A stretch of 64,000 nucleotides of DNA from NCBI RefSeq assembly GCF_901447155.2, contig NZ_LR588414.1:124001-188000 (forward strand), given 5' to 3'. Shown piece by piece: positions 2,858-18,875 of this stretch; position 1 is the first letter of the stretch, and each line of letters begins with the position of its first letter. Under the pieces are notes generated by a model. It was not told where the DNA came from. It did not search any database and saw nothing but the letters and a program-made list of their open reading frames with translations. This stretch comes from Peptoniphilus catoniae. GTDB lineage: Bacteria > Bacillota > Clostridia > Tissierellales > Peptoniphilaceae. Both the position numbers and the translations under genes were made by a program.

Positions 2858-3513
2858 ATGGAGTACAAAGATATTAGAGAAAATTTAGAAGAAATGATGA
2901 ATGATAACTACAAGGATTTTATAAAAGCACTTGTGAGTATAGAAAAAGGTGTCAATGATGAAAAAGCACTTGAAGAAGTCTATGTTTTATATATGAACAA
3001 TGACACAACAGGTTTACTAAGTGATGACTTTGACTATATGATTGATGATATGAAAGAACAAGGTAAGATTGTTGAAAATGCCAGTGATATTGAAGAAAAA
3101 GACGATCTTATAAATCTCGTGGGTAATATAGCTGGCAAAGTAGAAAATCTTGAAAGAGAAAATGCTAATGGAGAAAAGTTTAAAGTAAGCAACTTTTCAA
3201 TTGTGTCAAAAGATGACGATGGAAATAAAGTTTATACCAATTGCTCAACATATGGAGATAAGACAAAAGATATAGAGAGCCTTAAACAAGGATATTTTGT
3301 TAAAATCTTCGGACAAGTAAAAACAAGTATTGATAACAACGGAAAGGAACATAAGAACGTTCGTATTTTGTCTTCTAAGCTCTTAAAAGCAAAAGAACAA
3401 GTAAAGAGTCAAGACAAGGGTAAAAGTCCATATTAGGACAAATAAAAAGCTTTAAGACAGATGACAAAGCTAAGTCAAATAAGAAAGACTATAGCAAAGG
3501 TGCAGAAAGATAA
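2858..3513 (+). CDS. Mobile-element ssDNA-binding-like protein, C-terminus frameshifted
   Basis: An acidic protein of unknown exact function. Residues 1-85 are helical and acidic. From about residue 100 (EKFKVSNFSIVSKDDDGNKVY, then GYFVKIFGQVKTSI and HKNVRIL) the pattern looks like an OB-fold/ssDNA-binding domain. The start has a good site (AGGAGG before ATG 2858). The unshifted frame stops at 3434-3436. Restoring one A in the run at 3422-3425 continues as KSILGQIKSFKTDD to a TAA at 3511-3513, reproducing the SILGQI tail of the gene just upstream. The tail loss is therefore a -1 frameshift. A strong terminator follows at once. The context is a decayed integrative/conjugative element. Confidence 0.55.
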
Positions 3514-3644: not shown

Positions 3645-4637
3645 TTAATCACAACAATCACAATTTAAATTGTGGTGCTCGCAAGCTAAACCACGAACCT
3701 CGCTAGGAAGTTTCCCCTTGTACCTTTTGTAATAAATGGAAAATTTGCTATGGGATGTGTACCCAACAGATTCGGCTATTTCCTTTATAGGAAGTTCGGT
3801 ATTTAACAGAAGAGTCTCAGCCACATTCATTCTTTTTCTTTGGGTGTATTCTGTAATGCTTTGACCATATTTTTCTTTGAACAAATTTTTTAATTTTGTG
3901 CCGCTCATTTTAGATATTTTTTCAAGGGTTTCCTGATTTACATTCATGGCGAAATGATCATCTAAAAATCTGGCTACAACTTCAAGTGCTTTACTATCAT
4001 CAGACTCAATTTTATATTTTTTTCTATTCAAGTAGGTATCTATTACTATACTTATCCACTCATTTGCCTTGGCTTTAAAGAAAAAATCAGCGGCAGGAGC
4101 GTCCATCTTACAATTCAATATTTCCATTGCCACTTTTTCTAGGGACTTTGTAAGTATTATTTGATTTGTTTGAAGCAAGACCCTATAAAATGATTCTGAA
4201 TCAATATTAATGTCTAATAGGTGCTTTTCTAAAAGTTCTCTTTTAAATCCAATAGAAACAGTGAGATAGTAACTGTTCTCGTGTAATAAAAAAAGAAAGT
4301 CGTCTCTTATATTGTCGAAATCAAGAGTATATAATGAGTTTGCGGTTAATGTTTGATAAGGATTAAATTTTTCGCCATTTGCACTGACAACATAACTTGA
4401 ATATATTGAAAGGTAGTCCGAGATACTATAAGTACTTTCTTTAATTAATTCTTCTTTTATGTAAAAATCATGGATATCAATAATAAATCCATCTCCCTCA
4501 TAAAACCAGTAAAGTCCCTCTGCTTCTTTTAGATCATTTTTACTCCAACAAAATGTATGACCTGCACTTGAATATTTCTTATTGTTTTTACATTCTTCTA
4601 CCTTCATATATTCTTTTACAAAATCATAATATGTCAT
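3645..4637 (-). CDS. AraC family regulator with Cys/His-rich tail
   Basis: A transcription activator of the AraC/XylS family, 330 residues, divergent from the ABC pair that it probably controls. The C-terminal double helix-turn-helix occupies about residues 220-318 (TLEKISKMSGTKLKNLF, then PIKEIAESVGYTSHSKFSIYY). The N-terminal half is a ligand-binding region I do not recognise. The arrangement (AraC gene divergent from a heterodimeric exporter-fold ABC pair, Fur-like box between) resembles ybtA-ybtPQ and other siderophore-import loci, where the chelate itself is the co-inducer; that role here is inference. The last 13 residues, ACEHHNLNCDCCD, are unusually rich in Cys and His. The start at 4637 is preceded on its strand by AAAGGGATAG. 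Confidence 0.85.
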   Translation of the reverse strand: MTYYDFVKEYMKVEECKNNKKYSSAGHTFCWSKNDLKEAEGLYWFYEGDGFIIDIHDFYIKEELIKESTYSISDYLSIYSSYVVSANGEKFNPYQTLTANSLYTLDFDNIRDDFLFLLHENSYYLTVSIGFKRELLEKHLLDINIDSESFYRVLLQTNQIILTKSLEKVAMEILNCKMDAPAADFFFKAKANEWISIVIDTYLNRKKYKIESDDSKALEVVARFLDDHFAMNVNQETLEKISKMSGTKLKNLFKEKYGQSITEYTQRKRMNVAETLLLNTELPIKEIAESVGYTSHSKFSIYYKRYKGKLPSEVRGLACEHHNLNCDCCD

Positions 4638-4691: not shown

Positions 4692-4721
4692 TTGTATTAG
4701 TAATTATGCCAGATATATAAT
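4692..4721 (+). promoter_or_regulatory. Sigma-A-type promoter of the ABC pair
   Basis: TTGTAT, an 18-base gap, TATAAT at 4716-4721. The Fur-type palindrome at 4732 covers the expected transcription start. Confidence 0.6.
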
Positions 4722-4731
4722 AGAAAAGCAA

Positions 4732-4746
4732 TGATAATTATTATCA
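4732..4746. promoter_or_regulatory. Perfect 7-1-7 Fur box
   Basis: TGATAATTATTATCA is an exact match to the B. subtilis 7-1-7 Fur consensus (TGATAATnATTATCA). It lies between araC and the ABC operon just downstream of the -10, where bound repressor would block initiation. Confidence 0.8.
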
Positions 4747-4796
4747 GCTAAGCGAATTTATATCTAAAAGGAACATCAAAGAAAGGAGATATCATT

Positions 4797-6551
4797 ATGA
4801 AGATTTATAAAAAACTATTTGCTTATGTGCAGGATAAAAAATATCTTGGATTTTTCGCTATAGTTTTTTCTGCTATATCTGCTGTACTTACGGTATATGG
4901 ATTTTATTTAATCTACAAATTTCTGGATAATTTAATAATTAATTCAAATTTATCTGGTGCAGAGAGTTTAGCATTAAAATCTGTTATTACACTAACAAGT
5001 GGAGCAATATTTTATTCTGTTTCAGGAACATGTTCTCACATACTAGGTTTTAGGCTTGAAACAAATTTAAGAAAAAGGGGGATTGACGGCTTAGAGAAAG
5101 CAAGTTTTAGGTTCTTTGACTTAAATCCATCTGGTCAAATAAGAAAGATCATAGATGACAACGCCGCGCAAACTCATCAGGTTGTAGCTCACATGATTCC
5201 CGATAGTTCTCAGGCAATAGTTACACCCGTACTTGTACTAGCACTCGGCTTTATAGTAAGTATAAGAGTTGGCATAACTTTGCTTGCTCTTACCATAATC
5301 GGTGGCTTAATTTTAGGTGCAATGATGGGCGAGCAAGAATTTATGAAGATATACCAAGAAGCCTTATCTAAACTAAGTGCTGAAACTGTTGAATACGTAA
5401 GAGGAATGCAAGTTGTAAAAATATTTAGAGCAAATGTCGAGTCATTTAAAAGCTTTTACAAGGCGATAAAAGATTATTCAAAGTATGCTTATGATTATTC
5501 ACTATCTTGTAAAAAACCTTATGTTTTGTATCAATGGTTATTTTTTGGTTTAATTGCAATTTTAATTATTCCTATAGTTTATTTTATGACTAGCTTAGGC
5601 AGCGCCAAGGTGATTTTACTTGAACTTATCATGATTTTATTTTTATCGGGGGTTCTCTTTGTTTCATTCATGAGAATGATGTGGTACTCTATGTACATTT
5701 CTCAAGGCAATTATGCAGTAGATACCTTAGAGGCTCTATACAAGGATATGCAAAAAGACAAATTAGTGCATGGTGATGTCAATAATTTTAAAAACTACAA
5801 TATAGAATTTGACAATGTAAGCTTTGCTTATAACGATAAAGCTGTCATTGAAAATTTATCCTTTAAATTAGAAGAAGGAAAGTCCTATGCGCTAGTCGGT
5901 TCATCGGGATCAGGCAAATCGACTGTAGCAAAACTTATATCGGGTTTTTACAATGTTAATGAAGGAAGGATAAAGATAGGCGGCGTAGCAATAAGCGAAT
6001 ATTCTGACGAAGCCTTAATTAAAGCTATTTCCTTTGTTTTTCAAGATTCGAAATTATTCAAGAAAACTATTTATGATAACGTCGCTTTGGCTAATAAAGA
6101 TGCGACGAAAGATGACGTTATGAGAGCCTTAAAATTAGCAGGATGCGATTTGATACTAGACAAATTCCCAGAAAGAGAAAACACAATCATAGGCTCAAAA
6201 GGAGTTTATTTATCCGGAGGAGAAAAACAAAGAATTGCAATTGCCAGAGCAATTTTAAAGGATTCCAAAATTATTATTATGGATGAAGCGTCAGCATCTA
6301 TTGACCCAGATAACGAGTTTGAACTACAAAAAGCTTTCAAAAATCTTATGAAGGATAAAACAGTTATCATGATTGCTCACAGGCTTTCTACAATTAAAGA
6401 CCTTGATGAAATTCTTGTAATGGATAATGGCAAGATAATAGAAAGAGGATCAGATCAAGAGTTAATATCAAAAGATTCAAATTATAAGAGACTGCAAGAA
6501 CTCTTTAACAGTGCGAATGAATGGAGGGTTTCAAATGAAGGAGTTTTATAA
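4797..6551 (+). CDS. ABC transporter permease/ATPase, first half of a YbtP/YbtQ-like pair
   Basis: A 584-residue half-transporter of exporter fold: six membrane segments in residues 15-300, then an ATPase with Walker A GSSGSGKS (about 368-375), signature LSGGEKQ (about 471) and Walker B IIIMDEAS (about 491). The start at 4797 follows AAGGAG. It overlaps the second half-transporter by 17 bases, so the two are translated together as a heterodimer. The Fur box and AraC gene upstream suggest iron or metallophore traffic. In this fold both importers (YbtPQ, IrtAB) and drug exporters occur, so the direction cannot be read from sequence alone. The MATE gene downstream leaves export of a compound possible. 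Confidence 0.85.
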   Translation: MKIYKKLFAYVQDKKYLGFFAIVFSAISAVLTVYGFYLIYKFLDNLIINSNLSGAESLALKSVITLTSGAIFYSVSGTCSHILGFRLETNLRKRGIDGLEKASFRFFDLNPSGQIRKIIDDNAAQTHQVVAHMIPDSSQAIVTPVLVLALGFIVSIRVGITLLALTIIGGLILGAMMGEQEFMKIYQEALSKLSAETVEYVRGMQVVKIFRANVESFKSFYKAIKDYSKYAYDYSLSCKKPYVLYQWLFFGLIAILIIPIVYFMTSLGSAKVILLELIMILFLSGVLFVSFMRMMWYSMYISQGNYAVDTLEALYKDMQKDKLVHGDVNNFKNYNIEFDNVSFAYNDKAVIENLSFKLEEGKSYALVGSSGSGKSTVAKLISGFYNVNEGRIKIGGVAISEYSDEALIKAISFVFQDSKLFKKTIYDNVALANKDATKDDVMRALKLAGCDLILDKFPERENTIIGSKGVYLSGGEKQRIAIARAILKDSKIIIMDEASASIDPDNEFELQKAFKNLMKDKTVIMIAHRLSTIKDLDEILVMDNGKIIERGSDQELISKDSNYKRLQELFNSANEWRVSNEGVL

Positions 6552-8256
6552 AAAAAGATTTGCTCTTACAGATAAAGGAGCAAGAAATTTAAGTAAAGCA
6601 ACACTGGCTTCATTTTTCGTTTATTGTATAAACATGCTTCCTGCGATATTACTAATGATTTTTGCTCAGGAAGTTTTGGAAAATATTGGTAGAAGCAAGG
6701 GATTTTATATAGCATTCTCAGTTTTTACCTTGATAGTAATGTATATTTTGCTTTCTATCGAATACGATAAATTATATAGCACAACCTATCAAGAAAGTGC
6801 GGACTTAAGAATAAGGACAGCAGAGAATTTATCAAAACTACCTCTATCATACTTTTCTAAACACGATATTTCAGACCTAGCGCAGACAATCATGTCTGAT
6901 ATTGAAGGTATAGAGCATGCAATGAGCCACTCGATACCAAAAGTGGGCGGTATGGCACTCTTCTTCCCACTAATATCCATTATGATGCTAGTGAGCAATG
7001 TCAAGATGGGTTTAGCTGTAATTATTCCATCACTTTTAAGCTTTATATTTATACCTTTATCTAAAAAACATTCAGTTAAGGGACATAAAAGATATTATGA
7101 TATTCTAAGAAAAAACTCAGAAAGTTTTCAGGAAAATATCGAAATGCAAATGGAGATTAAAGCCTATGGCTTATCAGAGGAAATGAAAGAAAAGCTGTAT
7201 GAAAAAATGGATAAAAGTGAAAAAGTCCACTTAAAGACAGAAATAGGACTTATTTTAACTATGTCTATATCTTCAATATTTAGCTTTATTTCCCTTGCTG
7301 TCGTAATATTTGTTGGGGTAAATCTAATTATTAATAAAGAGATAAGCGCCCTCTACCTTATAGGATATTTACTAGCGGCTATGAAGATAAAAGACGCTCT
7401 TGATGCATCTAAAGAGGGAATGATGGAGATATTTTATTTATCGCCTAAAATTGAAAGACTAAAAGAAATTCAAAATCAAGATTTACAAGAAGGCGATGAC
7501 TATAATTTGAAAAAATTTGACATTGATTTAAAAGATGTTGAATTTGCCTACAATAAATACACAAAAGTTTTAAATGGTGTAAGCTTTAAAGCTAAGCAGG
7601 GAGAGGTAACTGCTCTAGTAGGCGCAAGCGGCTGCGGTAAAACAACTATCTTGAAACTTATATCAAGACTTTATGATTATGACCAGGGCCAAATCTTAAT
7701 CGATGGCAAAGATATAAAAGAAATATCAACAGAATCTCTTTTTGACAAGGTGTCTATTGTTTTCCAAGATGTAGTTCTCTTTAATCAAAGCGTTATGGAA
7801 AACATCAGACTCGGTAAGCAAGATGCAAGCGACGAAGAAGTTAAAAGAGCAGCAAAACTTGCAAATTGCACAGACTTTATAGATAACATGGATAAAGGTT
7901 TCGATACAGTTATTGGTGAGAACGGTGCTGAGCTATCAGGAGGAGAAAGACAAAGGTTATCAATAGCCAGAGCCTTCTTAAAAGATGCACCAATACTAAT
8001 ATTAGATGAGATAGCAGCAAGTCTTGATGTTGACAACGAGAAAAAGATTCAAGAGTCTTTAAATAATTTGATTAAAGATAAAACTGTTGTCATCATTTCA
8101 CACAGAATGAAATCCATAGAAAATGCGGATAAGATAGTAGTTCTTGAAAACGGAAAAGTAGAAAGCGAAGGCAAACATGAAGAGCTTTTACAAAAATCAA
8201 AAATTTACAAGAATTTAATAGAAAAAACAAAAATGGCAGAAGAATTTATTTATTGA
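6535..8256 (+). CDS. ABC transporter permease/ATPase, second half of the pair
   Basis: A 573-residue partner with six N-terminal membrane segments and an ATPase with Walker A GASGCGKT (about 362), signature LSGGERQ (about 465) and Walker B LILDEIA (about 488). I chose ATG 6535 because GGAGGG lies 7 bases before it; GTG 6511 has no such site. The start sits inside the end of the previous gene. The last codons, ATGGCAGAAGAATTTATTTAT, belong to a 31-bp sequence repeated after the MATE gene, so the extreme C-terminus may not be original. Confidence 0.85.
   Translation: MKEFYKKRFALTDKGARNLSKATLASFFVYCINMLPAILLMIFAQEVLENIGRSKGFYIAFSVFTLIVMYILLSIEYDKLYSTTYQESADLRIRTAENLSKLPLSYFSKHDISDLAQTIMSDIEGIEHAMSHSIPKVGGMALFFPLISIMMLVSNVKMGLAVIIPSLLSFIFIPLSKKHSVKGHKRYYDILRKNSESFQENIEMQMEIKAYGLSEEMKEKLYEKMDKSEKVHLKTEIGLILTMSISSIFSFISLAVVIFVGVNLIINKEISALYLIGYLLAAMKIKDALDASKEGMMEIFYLSPKIERLKEIQNQDLQEGDDYNLKKFDIDLKDVEFAYNKYTKVLNGVSFKAKQGEVTALVGASGCGKTTILKLISRLYDYDQGQILIDGKDIKEISTESLFDKVSIVFQDVVLFNQSVMENIRLGKQDASDEEVKRAAKLANCTDFIDNMDKGFDTVIGENGAELSGGERQRLSIARAFLKDAPILILDEIAASLDVDNEKKIQESLNNLIKDKTVVIISHRMKSIENADKIVVLENGKVESEGKHEELLQKSKIYKNLIEKTKMAEEFIY
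8223..8253 (+). repeat. Left copy of 31-bp direct repeat flanking the MATE gene
   Basis: AAAAACAAAAATGGCAGAAG and the next 11 bases match 9627-9657 at 30 of 31 positions (G8236 versus A9640). The repeat lies at the end of the second ABC gene. Confidence 0.85.
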
Positions 8257-9611
8257 AGAAATTAAAAATGAAACAAAACATGAAAGAACAGTTATTGACC
8301 AAGAAGCCATTGTCTTTAATGTTTCAATTATCTATACCAGCAGTAATTGGCATGGTGGTTATAGGTCTATATCCACTTATGGATGGAATATTTGCTGGAC
8401 AAATAATTGGTGAGAATGCTATGGCGGCTTGCTCAATAGCTATGCCACTTACATTTTTTAATAATGGGATTGCAACGCTTATAGGGATAGGTTCGGCATC
8501 AATTTTATCAAGAGCCATGGGAAAGGGTGATAAAGATACTATAGACAAGCTTATGGGAAATCTTATCTATTGGATTATATTTTTTTCAACGATCATAACA
8601 ATAGGAGGAATACTTCTAGGACCATATTTTTTAGATTTAATTGGAGCAACAGGAGAAATAAAGGCATTAGGCATAAGGTATTTAAGAATAATATTTCTAG
8701 GCTCAATTTTTGTAAACTTTACCCAGTCAGCCAATATGGTTATGCGTGGTGAAGGACTTATGAAAAGAGCAATGAGTATCATGGGACTTGGTGCCTTTAT
8801 CAATATAGCTCTTGATCCAATACTAATGAAATTAATGGGTGATTATGCCATTGAGGGAGCAGCTATAGCAACTGTAACAGCACAAATAATTCAAGCAGTT
8901 ATTACTCTTTATTATTTTAAGAGTAAAAGTGAAAATGTAAAAATAAAGAAAATAAAAAAAGAAAAAGATATATCAAAGGAAATGTTTGGAGTAGGAGTAT
9001 CAGCTATGATCATGCAAGTATTTTTCATGGTTCAACAAACATTGCTTTATAGACAAGCTTTTAGATATGGAGGAGATCCAAATGCAATATTAATGTCGGC
9101 AACTTTGAGATTTTATGGATTTTCATTTATACCAATTTGGGGAATGAGTCAGGCGTTACAGCCGATTATTGGTACAAACTTTGGAGCAAAACAATACGAT
9201 AGAGTAAAGGAAACTATGAAGATATTTTCTATAGGAGGAACAGTACTTGCAGCAATTTTTTGGTTACCAGCACAAGTATTTTCAAAACAGTTACTTGGTT
9301 TATTTAAAGTAAGTCAGGATATAATTTCAAGTGGAGTTAATAATTTCAGAATGTTCTATTCAGTATTTATTCTTTATGGAATTATGATTATGACAATAAC
9401 TTTTTTCCAAGCGATAGGGGATGGAAAAAAAGCTGGAATGATTGTAATGTTAAGACAGCTAATACTACTTGTTCCAGCCTTACTTATATTTCCAAGAGTA
9501 TTTGGAGCAGGGGCTGTTTGGTGGACAGAACCAGTTGTAGATTTTACTATGATAATGGTAGGTTTAGCAATGCAAGCAAAGGCTCTTTCAAATATGAATG
9601 TAAATAAATAA
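8253..9611 (+). CDS. MATE family multidrug/metabolite exporter
   Basis: A Na+- or H+-coupled exporter of the MATE family with about 12 membrane helices in 452 residues. Family features are the N-terminal PLSLMFQLSIPAVIGMVVIGLYP-type entry helix, the NMVMRGEGLMKRAM loop and the second-half repeat starting near SKEMFGVGVSAMIMQ. Possible starts are TTG 8253 (overlapping the ABC stop), ATG 8268 or ATG 8280; none has a clear ribosome-binding site, which fits translational coupling. The gene lies exactly between two 31-bp direct repeats, suggesting it arrived after the ABC pair. Its substrate is unknown. MATE genes often accompany AraC/ABC clusters of this type in clostridia. Confidence 0.82.
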   Translation: MKKLKMKQNMKEQLLTKKPLSLMFQLSIPAVIGMVVIGLYPLMDGIFAGQIIGENAMAACSIAMPLTFFNNGIATLIGIGSASILSRAMGKGDKDTIDKLMGNLIYWIIFFSTIITIGGILLGPYFLDLIGATGEIKALGIRYLRIIFLGSIFVNFTQSANMVMRGEGLMKRAMSIMGLGAFINIALDPILMKLMGDYAIEGAAIATVTAQIIQAVITLYYFKSKSENVKIKKIKKEKDISKEMFGVGVSAMIMQVFFMVQQTLLYRQAFRYGGDPNAILMSATLRFYGFSFIPIWGMSQALQPIIGTNFGAKQYDRVKETMKIFSIGGTVLAAIFWLPAQVFSKQLLGLFKVSQDIISSGVNNFRMFYSVFILYGIMIMTITFFQAIGDGKKAGMIVMLRQLILLVPALLIFPRVFGAGAVWWTEPVVDFTMIMVGLAMQAKALSNMNVNK

Positions 9612-9626
9612 AAATAAAATAAAGAG

Positions 9627-9657
9627 AAAAACAAAAATGACAGAAGAATTTATTTAT
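9627..9657 (+). repeat. Right copy of 31-bp direct repeat flanking the MATE gene
   Basis: Matches 8223-8253 at 30 of 31 bases. It joins directly to the ABC-ATPase fragment at 9654. Confidence 0.85.
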
Positions 9658-9770
9658 CAGGAGGACAGAAGCAAAGACTTGCAATAGCATCTGTTATGTG
9701 CAAGGATTCTCCATTTAGCTATTTCGAAGAACCTGCAAGTGGTATGGATTATTCCAATATGATAAAAATT
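9654..9770 (+). pseudogene. ABC (ECF-type) ATPase fragment
   Basis: 39 codons encode LSGGQKQRLAIAS, then KDSPF, FEEPASGMDYSNMIKI. This is the signature-to-Walker B stretch of an energy-coupling-factor type ATPase, in which Walker B normally reads DEPTSGxDY. The first Asp has become Glu and nothing remains on either side. It is probably the stub of a third transporter gene deleted from the cluster. The terminator follows at once. Confidence 0.7.
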
Positions 9771-9799
9771 GGCAGTCTTTGGACTGCCTTTATTTTTTA
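9771..9799 (+). terminator. Terminator, near copy of the one at 3519
   Basis: GGCAGTC-TTTG-GACTGCC then TTTATTTTTTA. It differs from 3519-3546 by one loop base over 28 positions. Confidence 0.9.
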
Positions 9800-9826
9800 T
9801 TTACTTTAACACAGCAAATCTTATAG

Positions 9827-9856
9827 TTGAAAAGAATCAACCTTATATGCTATAAC
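9827..9856 (+). promoter_or_regulatory. Promoter of the 9908 operon
   Basis: TTGAAA, 18-base gap, TATAAC at 9851-9856, with the Fur-like palindrome starting 13 bases downstream. Confidence 0.55.
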
Positions 9857-9868
9857 TAAATCAATAAA

Positions 9869-9883
9869 TGATAATTAATATCA
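9869..9883. promoter_or_regulatory. Fur-like box, one half-site mismatch
   Basis: TGATAATTAATATCA: the left half matches the 7-1-7 consensus exactly and the right half has one change (AATATCA for ATTATCA). It sits over the expected transcription start, as at 4732. Confidence 0.65.
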
Positions 9884-9907
9884 TTTAAATGAAAGAGGTG
9901 TTTAATT

Positions 9908-10546
9908 TTGACTTTGTACAAGAGTATATTAATTGGTTTTTTTGGTTCATTCTTAATGTTCTTGGGTGACATGACCTTATATTATGACCCTAATGATTAC
10001 GATGGCAAGGATGCCATAAACAGTGTTATTGGCATAATGAAAAATGTCAGCATAAAAAGATTATACATTGGCGGCCTTTTAGGTCCAATATCTGCCTTTA
10101 TATATTGTCTTGGATTTTATCATATAGTTTTGGCCATGCAAGAAAAGTATTTAACTATCGGATGGTTTATATTTTTAGTGAAAGTTTTTGGCATAATATT
10201 AGGAGGCTCTTTTCACATTCAATGTGCCAACCTAGGTCTTTTGTCAAGGCATGAAAACAAGGGAGCCTTAGATGAGTCTTTAAAATTTTTAAAACTCCAA
10301 GGAAAAATAGTTTTTGTAATTGCGGCTTTAGCAAACCTAGCATTAACTTTGGTAATTTTATCTGGACTTACAGTATTTCCAAAATGGCAAGTCCTATTTA
10401 CACCTATGTTTCTTTTAATTCTCACTCCTCTTACTGAGAGATTGCCAAAGGGACTGCATATGATTATCTGCGGCGGTTGGTTTAACTTAATATATTTTAT
10501 TTACTACTTAACCTTATTGATAAACTATACTAATATGAATTTATAA
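9908..10546 (+). CDS. Integral membrane protein of unknown function
   Basis: 212 residues with about six hydrophobic segments: 5-22, 53-72, 82-103, 136-158, 162-178 and 188-207. I do not recognise a characterised family with certainty; it resembles small uncharacterised six-helix proteins (DUF6796/DUF4386-like). The start is TTG 9908, placed 7 bases after AGAGGTG. It is the first gene behind a Fur-like box and probably leads the methyltransferase and hydrolase genes that follow, although an 81-base gap allows a separate transcript. Confidence 0.55.
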   Translation: MTLYKSILIGFFGSFLMFLGDMTLYYDPNDYDGKDAINSVIGIMKNVSIKRLYIGGLLGPISAFIYCLGFYHIVLAMQEKYLTIGWFIFLVKVFGIILGGSFHIQCANLGLLSRHENKGALDESLKFLKLQGKIVFVIAALANLALTLVILSGLTVFPKWQVLFTPMFLLILTPLTERLPKGLHMIICGGWFNLIYFIYYLTLLINYTNMNL

Positions 10547-10627
10547 GCTTATAAGTCAGAGATTAAAATTATTATTTTTGTAGACAAAGCAAATTTTATA
10601 AAATTAATTATTTACAGGAGAAAATTT

Positions 10628-11455
10628 ATGAAACAATTAAATTTTATAGATGACAAGAAAATAAGAGCTGACTATAAAAACTGGGTTCCTGAAAGCTTGT
10701 TAAAGAATTTAATCTTTGCAAGCCTTGCAGCTTTCATCCTATTTATAGCCTTTGGTGTCAGTGATTTTGTATTTAGTGGAAGAACTCGTCTAATATGTGC
10801 CCTTATTCTTGGGCTTGCAACGTTGATACTTATTTTCTTTGCAAGCTGGATGAGATTTTTATATAGGGCTTTTGATTACAACGGAAAAAGAAAGCTTGCC
10901 AAAGTCATAATAGAGGGGACTGCCGACTATGTAAAGATCCCAGATGGTGGCGTGGGTTTAGATGTAGGATGTGGTAGCGGTGCACTTACAATTGCTTGCG
11001 CAAAGAAAAATCCAAAAGCAACCATGGTGGGCTGCGATATTTGGGGTGGCTCATACAAAAGTGAATTTTCTAAGGAACTCTGTAAAAATAATGCAAAATT
11101 AGAGGGAGTAGAAAATGTTAGATTTGAAAATGGTAATGCAGTGAATCTTCCTTTTGAAGATGAAAGTTTTGATGCAGTAACTAGCAACTATGTTTATCAC
11201 AATATAACGGGGAAAAATAAACAAAAACTTTTACTGGAAACATTTCGTGTACTAAAAAAAGGTGGAGTTTTTGTTATTCATGATTTGATGAGCAAGTCAA
11301 GATACGGTGATATGAATAAATTTATGGAAAAGCTTAAACAAGATGGCTACGAAGATGTGCAATTAATTGATACAACAAAGGGTCTTTTTATGGGTCACAA
11401 AGAAGCTTTATTGTTAGGACTTTACGGCTCAACCCTTCTTATTGGCAAAAAATAA
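10628..11455 (+). CDS. Membrane-anchored class I SAM-dependent methyltransferase
   Basis: Two membrane helices (about residues 25-45 and 53-75) precede a class I methyltransferase fold. Motif I is GLDVGCGSG (about 115), the acidic loop is VGCDIWGG, and the post-motif stretch is NLPFEDESFDAVTSNYVYHN. Its substrate is unknown. The start at 10628 follows ACAGGAG. The small-molecule-type domain and its neighbours (a thiazoline-hydrolase-like protein and an alpha/beta hydrolase) suggest modification of a secondary metabolite or chelator, which is inference. Confidence 0.75.
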   Translation: MKQLNFIDDKKIRADYKNWVPESLLKNLIFASLAAFILFIAFGVSDFVFSGRTRLICALILGLATLILIFFASWMRFLYRAFDYNGKRKLAKVIIEGTADYVKIPDGGVGLDVGCGSGALTIACAKKNPKATMVGCDIWGGSYKSEFSKELCKNNAKLEGVENVRFENGNAVNLPFEDESFDAVTSNYVYHNITGKNKQKLLLETFRVLKKGGVFVIHDLMSKSRYGDMNKFMEKLKQDGYEDVQLIDTTKGLFMGHKEALLLGLYGSTLLIGKK

Positions 11456-11508
11456 AATAGCATATGAATTACTATAAAAAATTTTAGAAAGTTGATGGGG
11501 TGTGCAAG

Positions 11509-12135
11509 ATGAAATACAAAGGTTTTTATTTCTTATTATTTAAAGGTCCAATGAAGAAAGTTCTTATAGAAAAATATAATAAAGCATATGCTTCAGAAAT
11601 TATTAAAAAGAGCAAAAAAGTTTATCGAGAACTTGTAAAAAATATGGACGATATCGGCGAGGATAATCCCATGGCATACAATGAGATGTTCGCCCTTGTT
11701 TTTGTTGCTCCATATATAGCAAGTGAGAAAAAAATTCCGCCGGAGACCGTCCAGGAAATGATGCGTCGATCTCTTTATACTTTCAAATGGTTTTTTTCCT
11801 GGATTAATCTCAATACTAAAAGGGGAAAAGAGGCCAATAAGAAAAATATTCTTAAGTATTACAAGTGGTATACAGAGGAAAAAGAAAAGCTCTATCCCAC
11901 ATCTTTTAAAGTCGACTTCGAAGGTCAGCCCTATGAGGGTGCTTGTTATTATAGAATTACTCGATGCCCAATATGTACCTACACCAAGAAACTTGGCGTG
12001 TTTGAACTGATGCCACTTTTCTGTGAACTTGATGAGCTTATGATAAGCTTTCAACATGGAGTTTTACACAGAAAAGAAACTATCGCCAAGGGAGGAGACT
12101 ATTGTGATTACTTCATCTTGGGAAATAAAGAGTAA
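11509..12135 (+). CDS. L-2-amino-thiazoline-4-carboxylate hydrolase family protein
   Basis: A 208-residue protein resembling the ATC-hydrolase family, named for the enzyme that opens the thiazoline ring of ATC to S- or N-carbamoyl-cysteine in Pseudomonas cysteine formation. The recognisable part is the C-terminal third: RCPICTYTKKLGVFELMPLFC, then LDELMISFQHGVLHR and a closing AKGGDYCDYFILG with conserved Cys, Asp and Gly-Gly. Other members serve unknown substrates, so hydrolysis of ATC itself should not be assumed. I prefer ATG 11509 to GTG 11500. A thiazoline-acting enzyme in a Fur-controlled cluster invites a link with thiazoline-containing siderophores. Confidence 0.65.
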   Translation: MKYKGFYFLLFKGPMKKVLIEKYNKAYASEIIKKSKKVYRELVKNMDDIGEDNPMAYNEMFALVFVAPYIASEKKIPPETVQEMMRRSLYTFKWFFSWINLNTKRGKEANKKNILKYYKWYTEEKEKLYPTSFKVDFEGQPYEGACYYRITRCPICTYTKKLGVFELMPLFCELDELMISFQHGVLHRKETIAKGGDYCDYFILGNKE

Positions 12136-12204
12136 GAGATAATTTTATTATTAGAGAGGATATTTTTACTTGCTTTTGAAAAAAATTAAATAATGAGGAA
12201 TTAA

Positions 12205-12951
12205 ATGAAATTTATTAGCTACGGAAATAGAAATAATAAGACAATATTATTTATCCATGGGCTTGCCTCTACTGCAGACCTATGTTTCAAAGCTCTTCTT
12301 CCTTATTTGCAAGACTATTTTGTAATTTTCTGCGAATTGGACGAACATTATGGGACTAATCCCAAAGATTTAACTTCAATGAAAGAAACCATAAATTCCA
12401 TCGAAAGCTATATATTAAATGAAATGGGCGGGAGTGTGTATGGAATATGCGGATTTTCTATGGGAGCGACTATAGGAGTTGAACTAATTGGAAGAGGAAA
12501 TATTTCTGCTTCGAAAGTCCTCTTAGATGCGGCGATTACTGCCGAGTTGGGTTTGATGGCAGCGCCTCTTACTTTTGCTTTTATCATTGGGACAAGAAGG
12601 ATTAAAAATAAAAAACCCATTCCTAAATTTTTATTAGATAAGATTATGGGCAAGGATAATCTAAGCATAATAGAAATGATGTATCCGCAAATTTCAAAAA
12701 ATACGATTAAAAACGCCTGCAAGTTTATCTATCATTACAAGCCTCCAAAAAATTTAAACAAGTTTTCAAATCCAGTAAGATTTTGGAGGGGAAGCGAAGA
12801 GCCTATCCCTGCAAAAAGTGAAAAGATATTAAGAGAGTATCTTCCACAAATGAAAACAGAAGTATTTGAAGGAATGGGTCATGGACAATTTCTCCACGAT
12901 CATCCCAAAGAATACGCGGAGAAACTAAAAATCTTTTTGGAAAATAAATAA
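12205..12951 (+). CDS. Alpha/beta hydrolase
   Basis: 248 residues with the alpha/beta-hydrolase layout: oxyanion HGLAS near residue 19, nucleophile elbow GFSMG near residues 83-87 (Ser about 85), a late Asp/Glu region near 200 and the catalytic His in GMGHGQFLHDHP (about 230). An inserted cap region (about 115-170) is basic. Substrate unknown; esterase, thioesterase and lactonase activities are all possible. It sits between the ATC-hydrolase-like gene and a membrane protein in the same orientation, with a 9-base gap to the latter. Confidence 0.75.
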   Translation: MKFISYGNRNNKTILFIHGLASTADLCFKALLPYLQDYFVIFCELDEHYGTNPKDLTSMKETINSIESYILNEMGGSVYGICGFSMGATIGVELIGRGNISASKVLLDAAITAELGLMAAPLTFAFIIGTRRIKNKKPIPKFLLDKIMGKDNLSIIEMMYPQISKNTIKNACKFIYHYKPPKNLNKFSNPVRFWRGSEEPIPAKSEKILREYLPQMKTEVFEGMGHGQFLHDHPKEYAEKLKIFLENK

Positions 12952-12961
12952 GGAGAATATT

Positions 12962-13468
12962 ATGGATATAACAAGAGCAATATTAGATGGAATTGCAATG
13001 GCCGCTATCTTTAACGGTGCAGTGGCAGCTTTTGTACTGATTAACCCGAGATTTTTCTTTGATTCCTATCCAAAGAAAATACAAAATTCGGCTCCAGAAA
13101 AGATGACAAAAAAAGAGAAAAGAATAAATTTAATACTTACATTTATAATTTCAGGAATCGTATTTATATATGGAATGACCTCTCTTTTACATACGGGAAT
13201 AAGAGGACTTAGAGATCTTTTCTGGATGAGCTATATTCAGTGGATAATATTAAACTTGGGAGATTTCCTTCTATTGGATGTACTTTTGTTCCAAGGAAAG
13301 TACAAGGATAAGATAGTAATACCAGGTACAGAAGGACATGAGGACTACGAATTTAGAAATTGGATGAAGCATTTGGCTATTAAAGAACATTTTATCTTGA
13401 TGCCATTTTTACTAATTCCAATAGTATCCATAGTCCAAGCCTGGCTAGTGCTGCTACTGGGATTATAA
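12962..13468 (+). CDS. Four-helix membrane protein of unknown function
   Basis: 168 residues with hydrophobic segments at about 8-28, 55-75, 92-113 and 142-166. I recognise no family. The start follows AAGGAG with good spacing, and only 10 bases separate it from the alpha/beta hydrolase, so it is the last gene of that operon. Role unknown. Confidence 0.55.
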   Translation: MDITRAILDGIAMAAIFNGAVAAFVLINPRFFFDSYPKKIQNSAPEKMTKKEKRINLILTFIISGIVFIYGMTSLLHTGIRGLRDLFWMSYIQWIILNLGDFLLLDVLLFQGKYKDKIVIPGTEGHEDYEFRNWMKHLAIKEHFILMPFLLIPIVSIVQAWLVLLLGL

Positions 13469-13598
13469 AATAAAATTGATATATGGCAAAAGTTGTGACA
13501 CATAAGAAGTGCGAGAAAAATCCTTTAAAAAAATGCAACTAATATAAGATAATAATTTAGAACCAGATAAATTTAAGCAAAAACACGAGGAAAATAAT

Positions 13599-14038
13599 TT
13601 GATAGTTAGAAACATATCAAAATCAGATTTAGAAGACTTAGCAAGACTAATGGTGGATGTCTATAATGCTCCACCTTGGAATGATAAGTAGACAGCAGAG
13701 ACAGCCCTGGAATCCTTAACCGATATTTCAGATTTTCCAAATTTTTTTTGGCAATGTAATTGTTTATGGAAATAAAATAATTGGTGCAATAATTGATCAT
13801 ATAAGAAGATATGCTACTGAATCAACTTTTTATATAGATGAGTTTTTTATTTTTGAAGACTATAGGGGGACTGGTCTAGCAAAAAAATTTTTACCAAACA
13901 AGTATAAAACAATCACAGCAAAGAGGTATAAGTGGAGTATTTTTTACTACTTTAAAAAACTCTCAAGCCTATAATTTTTATGTAAAACAAGGTACTTGGG
14001 ATTTGGAAGATTCTGCATGCTTCTACCATAAATTTTAG
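13599..14038 (+). pseudogene. GNAT acetyltransferase remnant
   Basis: The frame opens at TTG 13599 behind a GAGG site with IVRNISKSDLEDLARLMVDVYNAPPWN. An in-frame TAG then falls where Trp is expected (NDxWTAETA). A +1 change in a T-run near 13742-13749 restores FGNVIVYGNKIIGAIIDH and FFIFEDYRGTGLAKKF, the GNAT acetyl-CoA loop region, though the usual R/Q-x-x-G-x-G loop is degraded to YRGTGL. A further shift near 13926 precedes GISGVFFTTLKNSQAYNFY and FYHKF at the end. Substrate unknown; not functional. Confidence 0.75.
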
Positions 14039-14128
14039 TAGCTTTCCATCAAGTCGATAGGTATTTTTCTTTAAAAAATTCTTAGATAAGAGTATTATTG
14101 TAATTATTAATTTAAAACGAGGAAGTAA

Positions 14129-14526
14129 ATGAAAAAATTTAATTGTTAAAGTACAGTGTGATATCTATATCTGGATTTCTATTTTTAATTGCTTGGTGTG
14201 TTTGTTATGGAATAGGAGAGGGAAAAGACAATATTGTTTTGGTGGTATGCCTAATAACATTTTTAGATTGCTTGGTAATTAGTTCAGTTATGCCATTAAA
14301 TATAGCTACACAAGTATTTTTTCAAAAAACATTAAAAATGAATTTAGAAGTAGAATTATGTCAGTTTTTAGCATGTTTGCATTATCATCAATACCTTTAG
14401 GAAATATGTTTTATGGATTTTTGGCAAATATTATGCCAGCATATATATATATTTATTGCAAGGTTAGCTGTACTAATCACCCACCCACTTATTTTGTATA
14501 TATCGAAAGATAAAAGTGTTAGGTAA
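14129..14526 (+). pseudogene. MFS transporter C-terminal remnant
   Basis: ATG 14129 behind GAGG gives only six codons before a stop. In another frame (from 14143) there are two membrane helices (ISGFLFLIAWCVCYGIG, NIVLVVCLITFLDCLVI), then VFFQKTLKN. After a one-A loss near 14334-14338 comes EFRSRIMSVFSMFALSSIPLG, the typical loop and helix 10 of major-facilitator exporters, and after a slip in the TA repeat at 14441-14450, FIARLAVLITHPLILYISKD to TAA. Only the last third of a transporter is present. Confidence 0.6.
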
Positions 14527-14545
14527 TTCAAAAAATATAGATAGA

Positions 14546-14728
14546 TAATTTAAGTTAAGAGACAAATCTAAAGACGTGGAGAGGATATCTTCATCGTCTT
14601 TTTTATTTGCGAAAACAATAGATGGCAGAAATGTCGACGAATTTACTACCATCCAAATGACAGCAGTTTGTTCATGTGTTAGAGTTTTTGTTGAAACCTT
14701 GGCAGGACTTCCCATTTATTTATATAAA
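14546..14728 (+). pseudogene. Phage portal protein N-terminal fragment
   Basis: The reading KLRDKSKDVERISSSSFLFA, then DEFTTIQMTAVCSCVRVFVE and TLAGLPIYLYK, matches the start of HK97-type portal proteins (the SAVYACVRxLAExIASLPxxLY block). The rest of the roughly 400-residue protein is missing and no other phage gene is nearby. It is a prophage or element scar. Confidence 0.55.
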
Positions 14729-15235
14729 ATAGGTTTATTATTTAAATTAGATAGGATAATAAAGGATGAAAATTATTCTAAATATTCCCATATGCGAGAT
14801 TTTTGGAAAAAATCAAACATTATCTATACTTAGCAATTCAAGTTTAATTTTTATTTATTACTTGTGTCCATTTTATTTTATAGCCTATTATAAAAATAAA
14901 ATATAGAGCCTTTGTACAAATACATCATCTTATAACATTACAAAAAAGAGCTATTTGAAAGGCTTTGAAAGTTAAGCCTGGAGTTTTAAAATGGGGAAAA
15001 TCTAGCATTTATAATAATTTTAGATCAGAAACTTAAGGATATTGAAATCAAAAAGTTAAAGACAGAAGAAAATTTTTAAGGGTAAAAGTCTAGGATAAAA
15101 AAACCAATGCAATATGGAGATTTGTTTATTGAAGAGCTAAAGATATCATTTGAGTTTAAAATGGGACCCGTATTCTCTTAGAACTGATTTTTTGTAATTT
15201 TTATTTATATTTAGTCAGTCCTATGAGTAATACTT
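14729..15235. other. Decayed stretch without a recognisable gene
   Basis: Short open pieces of up to about 30 codons, for example around 15000-15080 and 15107-15180, all broken by stops. No RNA gene or clear terminator is visible. It separates the phage scar from the Crp-type regulator. Confidence 0.4.
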
Positions 15236-15829
15236 TTATATTAATCCCTCTTTTTTCATAAGGGATAACTCTCTTGAAAGGGCAGGCCTATTACAAGCTA
15301 AAAATTTCGCCAAATCCTCCCTAGATAATTTATTGGAAAATAAGTAGTATTTACCATATTTATCTATGCATTTATTAATTTTTTCCCTAATCTTAGGCTT
15401 AGAATATATATCTAATTTGTAGGTTAAGTATGAAATTTGCTCATTATACAATTTTATAATATTTTCCATAAAAATCGGTCTACTTGAACAGGACCTTTTA
15501 TTTTTTTTAAAGATTTTGCTAACATCAAGGGACAAAACTTTAGAATCTTTTTTTGCAACCATAAATCTATCAGTTAGGGAGGAAAAATTTAAAGAAAAAG
15601 AATCTGAGGCCTCGTAAATTCTATCTATAATTTCCTTATCATCATCTACTGCAGATAGATCAATTCTTCCCTTCAAAACTATACCTGCCTTAAAGCCCTT
15701 AGAAAAATCATATAGATATTCGCCTTTACTAAAAATTAAGGTTTTATGATCAATACAAGAAAGTATGTGACGTATAGTGCTTTCGTCTAAACCATAAAAT
15801 AATTTACTTTTCACAATAATTTCTTCCAT
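15236..15829 (-). CDS. Crp/Fnr family regulator
   Basis: A 197-residue protein with an N-terminal cyclic-nucleotide-like beta-roll (IFSKGEYLYDF, GIVLKGRIDLS), a dimerisation helix (about 115-150) and a C-terminal helix-turn-helix, LSREDLAKFLACNRPALSREL (about 165-185). It ends at KKEGLI, a little earlier than most relatives, losing the wing. No cysteine cluster of Fnr type is evident, so the ligand is unknown. It diverges from the methyltransferase/FecBCDE operon, and the perfect palindrome between them is a likely operator. The start is preceded by GAGGGGAT on its own strand. Confidence 0.8.
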   Translation of the reverse strand: MEEIIVKSKLFYGLDESTIRHILSCIDHKTLIFSKGEYLYDFSKGFKAGIVLKGRIDLSAVDDDKEIIDRIYEASDSFSLNFSSLTDRFMVAKKDSKVLSLDVSKIFKKNKRSCSSRPIFMENIIKLYNEQISYLTYKLDIYSKPKIREKINKCIDKYGKYYLFSNKLSREDLAKFLACNRPALSRELSLMKKEGLI

Positions 15830-15842
15830 AAAATCCCCTCTT

Positions 15843-15856
15843 GTTGCTTTTGCAAC
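15843..15856. promoter_or_regulatory. Perfect GTTGC-N4-GCAAC palindrome, probable Crp-type operator
   Basis: GTTGCTTTTGCAAC has 5-4-5 geometry, the spacing used by Crp/Fnr proteins. It lies 14 bases before the start of the Crp-family gene and overlaps the -35 (15850) of the opposing operon. Confidence 0.6.
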
Positions 15857-15878
15857 TGCAATAAAAATTATCTATACT
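15850..15878 (+). promoter_or_regulatory. Promoter of the chelate-uptake operon
   Basis: TTGCAA, 17-base gap, TATACT at 15873-15878. The -35 lies in the GTTGC/GCAAC palindrome and the Fur box starts 17 bases after the -10. Confidence 0.55.
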
Positions 15879-15894
15879 ATAATTATAAACGTAA

Positions 15895-15909
15895 TGATAA
15901 TTATTATCA
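15895..15909. promoter_or_regulatory. Perfect 7-1-7 Fur box
   Basis: TGATAATTATTATCA, identical to the box at 4732. It touches the AAGGAGG ribosome-binding site of the methyltransferase gene. Confidence 0.8.
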
Positions 15910-15923
15910 AGGAGGAAGAGAAA

Positions 15924-16682
15924 ATGGAAAAAAGTAAAATTATTTTTGGACATGATTTTTTAAAGATGCTTGGAAGAACAAGACTCAGACCAGGCGGCGG
16001 TCTTATGACCGATTGGTTGTTTGATCAGGTAGAGATTGATAAAGATATGCAAGTTTTGGAAGTTGCTTGCAATAGAGGAGATAATCTTATAAGAGTTTAT
16101 ACTAAATATAAATGCAAAATAATAGGTATAGACAATGACCAAGTTGTCATAGACCAAGCCCTAGAGAATATAAAGCTTTTAGGCTTAGACAAAGAAATTG
16201 AAGTTATGAATATGGATGCCTTAAAGTTGGATTTTGAGGATGAAACATTTGATTTAATAATTAATGAGGCAATGCTCACCATGCTTCCAAATGAAGAAAA
16301 AGCAAAGGCTCTTAAAAATTATCACAGGGTTTTAAAAAAAAGCGGCTATTTATTAACTCATGATGTGGCAGTGGAAAATGAAAGTGAAGATATAAGAAGG
16401 CAACTTTCAAAATTTACAAACATGGATGTGTATCCTCTAACCGTAGAAAATTGGAACAAACTGTTTATAGAAAATTCTTTTAGACCTTTTTCACAAAGGA
16501 CTGGTAGGATGATTCTCTTAGACAGGGATACAATCATAAAAGATGAGGGCCCAGTAGGGGCTGCAAATTTTTATAAAAATGCTTATTCACAAGAAAATAG
16601 AGCAAGGTTTACAAAAATGCTAGAAAGGTCTAAAAGTTCAAGCATTTCTTATATAGTTTTAGCGAGTATAAAGGAGAGTTAG
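15924..16682 (+). CDS. SAM-dependent methyltransferase heading a chelate-uptake operon
   Basis: A class I methyltransferase of 252 residues. Motif I is the variant LEVACNRGDNL, the acidic residue follows in IGIDND (about 75), and the catalytic-face stretch is DLIINEAMLTMLP. I chose ATG 15924 because AAGGAGG precedes it by 8 bases; the ATG at 15894 lies inside the Fur-box region. It stops just before the substrate-binding protein gene. Methyltransferases at the head of FecBCDE operons are not a standard transport component, so it probably modifies the transported chelate or its precursor (inference). Confidence 0.75.
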   Translation: MEKSKIIFGHDFLKMLGRTRLRPGGGLMTDWLFDQVEIDKDMQVLEVACNRGDNLIRVYTKYKCKIIGIDNDQVVIDQALENIKLLGLDKEIEVMNMDALKLDFEDETFDLIINEAMLTMLPNEEKAKALKNYHRVLKKSGYLLTHDVAVENESEDIRRQLSKFTNMDVYPLTVENWNKLFIENSFRPFSQRTGRMILLDRDTIIKDEGPVGAANFYKNAYSQENRARFTKMLERSKSSSISYIVLASIKES

Positions 16683-17850
16683 ATGAAAGCTATAAAAAAT
16701 ATCATTAATTTCATGTCTACTAGTACTTGTCCTGGCAAGCATAACTGCTTGTGGCCACTTAAAAAGCAATCAAAAGCCAGAAGGTAAGGAAGTGGCTCAA
16801 ACTGAGACAAAAGAAGAAAAGCCAGAAGAAAGTAAGGATAAAAGTAAAAAAACAAGGACCATTACAGACCATGCAGGTAATGAGGTAGAAGTTCCAGAGA
16901 AAGTTGAAAGAATAGTAATAGATCAGATACCTATCTTATCTACTTATATGGCTTATCACCACGGAAAGGCACCGTATATAGTGGGATATGCCGGTTCACT
17001 TAAGCAAGTAATTTCAAATACAGTATTAAAGGATATAGCTCCAGAGCTTCTTGATAGCCAAAATACAGTCCAAGGTCAATCTGACCTAAATATTGAGGAA
17101 ATAATGAAACTTAAACCAGATGTTATTTTCTATAATGCCTCAAATAAAGAACACTATGAAGCCTTATCTAAAACTGGCATACCATGTGTAGGTTTTGCTA
17201 CAGTTGGTACAAATGGACCTGCTGACCCAATAGATAGATATACACAATGGTTAAAACTCTTAGAAGATGTATTTGGTGAAAGCGGAAAGACAGATGATTT
17301 CATAAAAGCAGGTCAAGACATTGTAAAAGATGTTGAAGATAGAATAGCAAAAATAGATGATAGTAAAAAACCAACCGGTATGATTTTGTGGAAGTATGTT
17401 CAAGGTGTACCAATGGTTGCTGGGAAAGGTGTTTTTGGAGATTTCTGGCTAAAGAGAATTGGTGTCAAAAATCTAGCTGATGAAACAAAAGGTTTTGCCA
17501 AAGTTTCTATTGAACAATTTTATCAATGGGATCCAGATATACTTTATCTTGATGGACCTGGTCTTCTTGATATTACAACAAAAGATGTATTTGCAAATTC
17601 TGTAGAAGGTATCGATTTTTCAAATATGAAAGCAGTAAAGGATAAGAAAGTTTATAATACTAAGCTTGGTATGTGGAATTGGTTTACACCAAATCCAGAC
17701 GGCCCACTCGTATTGGCTTGGCTTGCAAAATCAACCTACCCAGATGAATTTAAAGACTATGACTTAAAAACAATGATTAAAGATTATTATAAAACTTGGT
17801 ATAGTTATGAATTAACCGATGAACAAATTGAGGATATGTTTGATATATGA
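16683..17850 (+). CDS. FecB/FepB-type chelate-binding lipoprotein, signal peptide frameshifted
   Basis: A periplasmic-binding-fold lipoprotein for iron-siderophore or corrinoid type chelates. ATG 16683 begins a signal peptide, but between 16715 and 16720 the frame changes by +1; only then do LVLVLASITACG (lipobox ending in Cys) and the mature protein follow. Beyond a Glu/Lys-rich linker come TRTITDHAGNEVEVPEKVERIV, LNIEEIMKLKPDVIFYNAS and QFYQWDPDILYLDGPG, all family blocks. As sequenced, translation must start at GTG 16792, giving a 352-residue protein without signal peptide that could not be anchored. Either this is a recent lesion or an assembly error. ATGA coupling to the permease follows. 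Confidence 0.8.
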
Positions 17851-18875
17851 TTAAAGGAATCTTTATCAAAGATAAAAAAATAAAATTAAGCTCATATATA
17901 ATACTTATAAGTCTACCCATATTGATTAGTGTTTTGGCGCTTGCCATTGGTAGGATGCCTCTTAGTATAGGAGAGATTATCGATTTTTTCAACACTTATC
18001 TATGTGGGAGAGACTTTGATCCTATGCTTGAATCGGTAATAATAAATGTAAGACTGCCAAGAATTATTACAGGTCTAATAGTAGGATCTGGTCTTTCCAC
18101 AACTGGTCTTGCCTTTCAAGGGGTTTTTTCAAACCCCTTGGCAACTCCAGATATACTAGGCGTAAGCTCAGCTGCAAGTCTTGGAGCTGTAATTGGAATA
18201 CTTTTATCACTTTCAGCTCTATCTATTCAAGTTTTTGCTTTAGCTTTTGGATTAATTGGCGTAGTTTTGACCTTATATATTGGAAAGATTAGGACTAGGT
18301 CATCAACTATAATGCTTATATTAGCAGGTCTTGTAGTTTCCTCATTATCCAACGCCTTGGCATCTTTATTAAAATACACAGCTGATCCTACAGACAAGTT
18401 GCCAGCAATCAGCTATTGGCTTATGGGTTCTTTTGCAAGATCATCCTACAAAAACTTGATGCTTTCAGCACCCCTAATAATTTTTGGCATAATTTTAATA
18501 AGACTTTTGATATTTAGACTAAATATTATGAGCCTATCGGAAGATGAAGCAAAAAGTTTAGGAGTTAATGTCAAAAAAACCAGACTCGTTTTTATATTTG
18601 CTTCAACACTTATTACAGCATCATCCATATCAATGTGTGGCCAAGTTGGCTGGATTGGTTTGATAATTCCTCACATGGCAAGGATGATGGTGGGAGCTAA
18701 CAATACCCACACCCTACCCTTTAGTATATCTTTAGGAGCAAGTTTAATGGTATTAATAGAAGCCTTATCAAGAACAGTTTCTGTAATAGAACTACCTATT
18801 TCAGTTCTTACGGCAATTATAGGTGCCCCAATTTTTATAAGCTTAATTAGGAAAACTGGGGGTGGTTTCAATTAA
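17847..18875 (+). CDS. FecCD-type ABC permease
   Basis: A 342-residue BtuC/FecCD permease with about ten membrane helices and the family blocks RLPRIITGLIVGSGLSTTGL, NPLATPDILGVSSAASLGA, and QVGWIGLIIPHMARMMVG near residue 260, the ATPase-contacting loop. The ATG overlaps the binding-protein stop. One permease gene is present, so it should act as a homodimer. The cargo is a metal chelate by family; the exact one is unknown. Confidence 0.9.
   Translation: MIKGIFIKDKKIKLSSYIILISLPILISVLALAIGRMPLSIGEIIDFFNTYLCGRDFDPMLESVIINVRLPRIITGLIVGSGLSTTGLAFQGVFSNPLATPDILGVSSAASLGAVIGILLSLSALSIQVFALAFGLIGVVLTLYIGKIRTRSSTIMLILAGLVVSSLSNALASLLKYTADPTDKLPAISYWLMGSFARSSYKNLMLSAPLIIFGIILIRLLIFRLNIMSLSEDEAKSLGVNVKKTRLVFIFASTLITASSISMCGQVGWIGLIIPHMARMMVGANNTHTLPFSISLGASLMVLIEALSRTVSVIELPISVLTAIIGAPIFISLIRKTGGGFN

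Follow-up and report, generated by a model that had tools for sequence, protein, structure and literature searches.

Three operons and a shared palindrome

A Fur-type palindrome recurs in front of three operons in a window of DNA from Peptoniphilus catoniae, the window being the whole stretch of 64,000 nucleotides that was analysed (contig NZ_LR588414.1, 124,001 to 188,000; positions below are counted from its first letter). Box 1, TGATAATTATTATCA at 4732-4746, lies between the divergent genes for an AraC-type regulator and the transporter ABC1; box 2, TGATAATTAATATCA at 9869-9883, has one mismatch and precedes the DUF6796 operon; and box 3, again TGATAATTATTATCA, at 15895-15909, lies between a -10 box and a ribosome-binding site. 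The boxes are listed without strand, and a rescan recovered all three where the earlier note on this DNA had placed them. The exact copies are identical to TGATAATNATTATCA, the high-affinity Fur site of Bacillus subtilis as quoted from Fuangthong et al. in PMC5467902, and the claimed match to the 7-1-7 Fur consensus holds. As the earlier note had also claimed, each box lies just downstream of a -10 box, starting by eye 11-13 positions past the end of a -10-like hexamer on the plus strand: TATAAT at 4716-4721 (with a -35-like TTGTAT at 4692-4697), TATAAC at 9851-9856 (with TTGAAA at 9827-9832), and TATAAT at 15878-15883. Most rows in the alignment of AraC gene fronts (the regions upstream of the AraC genes in relatives) retain the first of these hexamers. 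With promoters called by eye, this position relative to the -10 would suit a repressor.

The three operons lie on the plus strand, and their genes were assigned mainly by Pfam. The first, opposite the AraC-type gene (3645-4637, minus strand; HTH_18), encodes two fused permease-ATPases, ABC1 (4797-6551) and ABC2 (6511-8256), and a MATE transporter (8253-9611), behind which lies the remnant of an ECF ATPase gene (9654-9779; tblastn, 81% over 42 amino acids). The set was correctly named as AraC/ABC/MATE and placed under the same box as the two operons that follow, whose names need correction. The middle operon, described as beginning with a methyltransferase gene, begins with one for a DUF6796 membrane protein (9908-10546; PF20599), followed by the class I methyltransferase MTa (10628-11455), a PF14196 'ATC_hydrolase' protein (11500-12135), an alpha/beta hydrolase (12205-12951) and, by eye, a small membrane-type protein with no Pfam match (12962-13468). 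The third contains a single FecCD-type permease gene and is to be called FecB-FecCD-FecE, not FecBCDE: the class I methyltransferase MTb (15924-16682) is followed by a FecB-type substrate-binding protein (16792-17850; Peripla_BP_2), the FecCD-type permease (17847-18875), a FecE-type ATPase (18862-19665) and a cupin protein (19667-20314). The open reading frame (ORF) listed from 15894 overlaps box 3, and by eye the likely start of MTb is ATG 15924 behind AGGAGG. A Crp/Fnr-like regulator (15236-15829, minus strand) is encoded divergently from MTb. Between operons 2 and 3, a short ORF at 14576-14833 looks by eye like a phage portal protein fragment; PADLOC gave no match for three side ORFs.

The palindrome across the genome and among relatives

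The window holds two exact copies of TGATAATNATTATCA and three at up to one mismatch, the expected numbers under a first-order Markov model being 0.0017 and 0.069, respectively. When 140 permutations of the half-site were compared, the true one included, the three window matches were reached by the true half-site alone. At 3 mismatches the window has 18 matches versus 10.8 expected, a number that is not unusual, being reached in 9 of 100 shuffles. The signal is carried by tight matches only, and loose scans at 2-3 mismatches are uninformative.

In the genome (1.73 Mb in 15 contigs, 99.97% complete), the exact palindrome occurs three times, twice in the window and once 8.8 kb upstream of it. 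These three copies and that at 9869 all fall inside 24.7 kb, for which the same Markov model gives a Poisson P of about 2e-8, a value that disregards that the region was picked after the sites had been seen. The whole-genome 7-1-7 scan that the earlier note had proposed found eight places at up to one mismatch, and six stand before genes that fit: the three window operons, a znuA operon, a second PF14196 operon, and a DUF3793-flavodoxin pair. The znuA site is the third exact copy and precedes a znuA-ABC-permease-permease-DtxR operon (znuA/mnt-like). The second PF14196 operon (L027 near 6392; contig C6 of the same genome, 61391) encodes a methyltransferase, a PF14196 protein 82% identical to that of the window, and an alpha/beta hydrolase; neither its hydrolase nor its small membrane-type protein is significantly similar to the counterpart in the window operon. 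A search of open-licence PMC articles only found none linking DUF3793 to Fur.

Conservation was examined by scanning genome contigs with both PF14196 proteins, which gave 37 loci. The 23 used belong to the Peptoniphilaceae genera Anaerococcus, Peptoniphilus, Finegoldia and Aedoeadaptatus, together with one Ezakiella and one Mediannikoviicoccus locus that NCBI files elsewhere; in the other 14 of the 37 (Oscillospiraceae, Lachnospiraceae and other Clostridia-type records) no such box precedes the PF14196 gene. Among 26 PF14196-operon fronts, 24 from the 23 loci and 2 from P. catoniae itself, a box was found in 19 at up to two mismatches and in 15 at up to one, the best of the 139 other permutations reaching 8 and 1. 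At AraC, a box with at most two mismatches stands at -109 or -110 in 14 of 15 fronts (best other permutation 9, and 0 at up to one mismatch); this alignment took the 14 of 19 listed matches that start at query residue 1-2, leaving out four without the N-terminal part and one 42% paralogue. All nine MTb fronts have a box with up to two mismatches at -26 to -30. The permutation TAATGAT likewise reaches 9 there, and 6 at up to one mismatch, because it reads the same box three bases off. Variation among relatives affects inner positions, while the outer TGAT and ATCA are mostly kept. As a separate observation, position 10 of the PF14196-operon boxes, in the copy at 9869-9883 and the 19 boxed fronts alike, is A or G and never the consensus T.

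The 22 genomes of relatives hold 140 palindromes at up to one mismatch versus 37 for a backwards control, island sites included. In 72 stretches around such sites, taken from 10 of the 22 genomes, the palindrome recurs before ABC1/AraC, flavodoxins, MTc, znuA, MTb, DUF6796 and the abh3 hydrolase, and some sites fall in coding sequence. Twenty downstream proteins searched at E 1e-15 were mixed, 6 of the 20 having no match; boxed genes include those for pyruvate:ferredoxin oxidoreductase, rubrerythrin, AhpC, ABC ATPases and a thioesterase. In Anaerococcus lactolyticus a box precedes a long gene whose start resembles, by eye, that of a secreted surface protein. Could chance palindromes in AT-rich DNA explain the three window matches? 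At loose stringency the counts are indeed not clearly above controls. Tight matches far exceed expectation, however, and the box position is held across genera; since the box is conserved in place, the chance explanation is contradicted and its probability is practically nil.

The regulator

The earlier note made its reading depend on a Fur homologue, and the genome was found to carry a single PF01475 gene (E 9.3e-37) that by eye adjoins a ruvX-like gene. The best solved relative of its product is a ferric uptake regulation protein at 133.9 bits, while the first peroxide operon regulator entry scores 74.6. Fur-family genes are also present in 22 of 22 relatives' genomes.

The boxes of PerR and Zur differ little from the Fur box, and DtxR-type sites are TTAGG-type palindromes. 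It could be another metalloregulator that binds, if the Fur-family protein were truly of PerR or Zur type or if the DtxR/MntR-type protein of the znuA operon recognised the palindrome. A DtxR-type gene does exist in the genome, rubrerythrin and AhpC are among the boxed genes of relatives, and the equibactin genes of Streptococcus equi are controlled by the DtxR-like EqbA, not by Fur, according to PMC3672683. Nevertheless, the PF01475 gene is the only one in the genome and is closest to Fur, and the outer TGAT and ATCA are of the Fur form. The znuA promoter (L024:9189-9262; contig C2 from 115189 on) further carries, besides an exact palindrome before its -35, a separate TTAGG-N4-CCTAA box behind its -10, with the look of a DtxR-type site; this motif occurs nowhere in the window and once in the znuA promoter of P. 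catoniae. Both elements are found in 4 of 4 aligned znuA promoters, one from this genome and three from Anaerococcus genomes, a count that supports the TTAGG box and not the palindrome because the relatives' three promoters were found via the palindrome. The znuA promoter likely receives dual metal input, and control of the island by a metalloregulator other than Fur is improbable.

Crp/Fnr sites are likewise TGAT...ATCA-type palindromes, with the core TGAT-N4-ATCA, and the Crp/Fnr-like protein encoded beside MTb might bind the boxes as a local regulator moving with the island. In the window, as in the eight relatives that have both genes, its gene and MTb point away from each other and box 3 lies in the gap. 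The half-site spacing, on the other hand, agrees with 7-1-7 and not with the Crp/Fnr core, and a homologue of at least 79% identity occurs in only 8 of the 22 genomes. Of the other 14, one (G014) gave nothing at E 1e-5, and the remaining 13 carry only distant relatives (24-35%) that are possible binders; the PF14196 operon is boxed in 13 of these 14 genomes lacking a close homologue, the exception being the Finegoldia locus L046. With the site present where a close homologue is absent, Crp-like control was judged highly unlikely.

The palindromes are very probably operators of a single Fur, which would control a horizontally shared iron-acquisition island with boxes of its own. Comparison with relatives lends the Fur reading strong support; the earlier note had the sites right and, very likely, Fur as well. 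Its proposal of a local metal regulon under Fur is supported as to Fur, by the homologue and the box kept in relatives, and is too narrow as to "local", with boxed operons found elsewhere in the genome. In the proposed mechanism, iron-loaded Fur would sit just 3' of the -10 boxes and block the three operons, and under iron scarcity it would leave the boxes and allow expression. Fur binding and iron repression are predicted at these boxes.

Several observations weigh against the Fur-controlled island. The two remaining places of the eight tight genomic matches lie within an ORF and at an ORF end; at 2 mismatches the genome has 29 places versus 39 for the backwards control, no excess; and among four genomes of the genus only that of P. 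catoniae carries the exact palindrome, none being found in the same-genus genomes G001-G003. No box at up to two mismatches was found in the tested region of 7 of the 26 PF14196 fronts (L033, L034, both fronts of L044, L045, L046 and L047), though in L034 and L045 a two-mismatch box lies farther upstream. The fronts come from related sequences and hence are not independent. Other boxed genes in relatives, for phosphoglucose isomerase, D-Ala ligase and subtilase, are not iron genes by name. The equibactin precedent cited above has a DtxR-like regulator in place of Fur, and the window cassette is, on the evidence of the remnant left at 9654-9779, one that has lost its ECF genes. L039 has intact ECF genes between MATE and DUF6796, three in number: Trep_Strep, CbiQ and a double ATPase.

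The island, its cargo and known systems

Island proteins have best identities to the relatives' loci of 81% (DUF6796) to 99% (MATE). The Fur-family proteins, compared as one gene per genome in 10 of the 22 genomes, are 30-53% identical to that of P. catoniae in 9 of 10 relatives and 74% identical in P. obesi, apparently of the same genus, as the same-genus genome G001 and G014 (P. obesi) have identical coordinates in the Condensation-domain search. MTb was searched for in 11 genomes, the 8 with a close Crp homologue and the same-genus G001-G003, the last three giving no match at E 1e-60. By these identities the island is horizontally shared between hosts whose own Fur proteins differ considerably. 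Since it carries its own Fur boxes, each new host's Fur would take control of it. In Ezakiella coagulans, whose sole Fur-family protein is divergent (30% to that of P. catoniae), the AraC|ABC1 box has decayed while the -10-like TATAAT is retained (n=1), and a two-mismatch box is kept at the PF14196 operon.

A second ECF-ABC-ABC-MATE cassette of the same genome (L169:8548-16424, contig C3) is intact and lies amid relaxase- and integrase-like genes called by eye; it looks, also by eye, to be part of a conjugative element, and no box at up to two mismatches was found at it. The window ORF at 2858-3436 is 90% identical to a C3 ORF located 8 kb before this cassette, a match which suggests that the window island may also lie near conjugative-element genes.

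The cargo would import and process an iron chelate, either a siderophore or a tetrapyrrole. The PF14196 protein matches its profile at E 1.9e-35 (123.2 bits, cut-off 28.1), and no solved structure matches that profile at E 0.1. Its predicted fold resembles, in a weak match, H-NOX/V4R/Bet3 proteins, with no clear match to a known hydrolase, so that the name "thiazoline hydrolase" may mislead. A possible though doubtful proposal is siderophore piracy, in which a neighbour's thiazoline siderophore is imported and then opened by the PF14196 protein. It draws on a non-ribosomal peptide synthetase (NRPS) cluster in Anaerococcus degeneri (L164-L165) with an Irp3-like reductase, from which a thiazoline-type product would follow, a thioesterase, a phosphopantetheinyl transferase and an AMP ligase; the thioesterase gene carries a box, and the cluster is accompanied by a related ABC-ABC-ECF-MATE set. 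The NRPS Condensation domain is absent from the P. catoniae genome (0 PF00668 matches) and present in 10 of 22 relatives, and PMC3672683 describes eqbHIJ and eqbKL transporters for equibactin. Against piracy, the island ABC proteins are just 31-34% identical to those of the A. degeneri cluster, the PF14196 fold has no clear hydrolase counterpart, and the window has lost its ECF genes; in S. equi eqbHIJ is the import part (PMC3672683), and EqbHIJ would be of ECF type. Haem, or some other tetrapyrrole, is an unlikely substrate of the island: the fold match pointing that way is a weak one, the annotated genes include none for a haem-degrading enzyme, and the FecB-type protein scores 34.1 bits versus the haem protein IsdE, the cut-off being 298.65. 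A broader reading is held tentatively, its chances somewhat short of even, in which PF14196, the methyltransferases, DUF6796 and the hydrolases form an undescribed Fur-wired, horizontally shared pathway of iron acquisition or release in anaerobes, spread across Peptoniphilaceae and kin with boxes linking it to each host's own Fur, and PF14196 is an H-NOX/V4R/Bet3-type binder of a ligand or metal rather than a hydrolase.

Worth following are the conserved Fur-type boxes of the PF14196/DUF6796/methyltransferase operons together with their horizontal spread. Control by Fur indicates a part in iron supply, and the box retained ahead of genes for PF14196, DUF6796 and class I methyltransferases in many Peptoniphilaceae suggests for them, little understood as they are, a function that can be tested; P. 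catoniae itself has no NRPS Condensation domain and, in a nearly complete genome, no FeoB_C match. The island's spread among hosts with differing Fur is also a clear example of a putative operator moving together with the genes behind it. No literature linking PF14196 to Fur, siderophores or a methyltransferase was found in open-licence PMC articles, the only ones searched, so this absence proves little.

The iron island is unusual and horizontally shared, and the regulator that appears to control it is of an ordinary kind. The island transporters may distantly resemble equibactin-type siderophore modules; the comparison, made with the A. degeneri cluster, gave 31-34% for the ABC proteins and 72% for MATE, the window ECF gene being a remnant. 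The apparent common ground with the equibactin locus of ICESe2 (PMC3672683) comprises a fused ABC pair, neighbouring ECF importer genes (as seen in L039 and other intact relatives) and a likely mobile context; the window genome differs in having no NRPS Condensation domain, Fur-type boxes instead of a DtxR-like regulator, and lost ECF genes. LhaSTA of Staphylococcus lugdunensis (PMC7299338) is an iron-regulated ECF importer with a Fur box, the feature in common, whereas the window has only the ECF remnant. The window protein joins the L-2-amino-thiazoline-4-carboxylate hydrolase family PF14196 by its Pfam match and departs from it in a predicted fold that is weakly H-NOX/V4R/Bet3-like, hydrolase activity being only putative. 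With the B. subtilis Fur regulon the system shares the exact consensus TGATAATNATTATCA, boxes at metal-transport and flavodoxin genes, and a Fur homologue, while its predicted targets differ in including PF14196, DUF6796 and class I methyltransferase genes.

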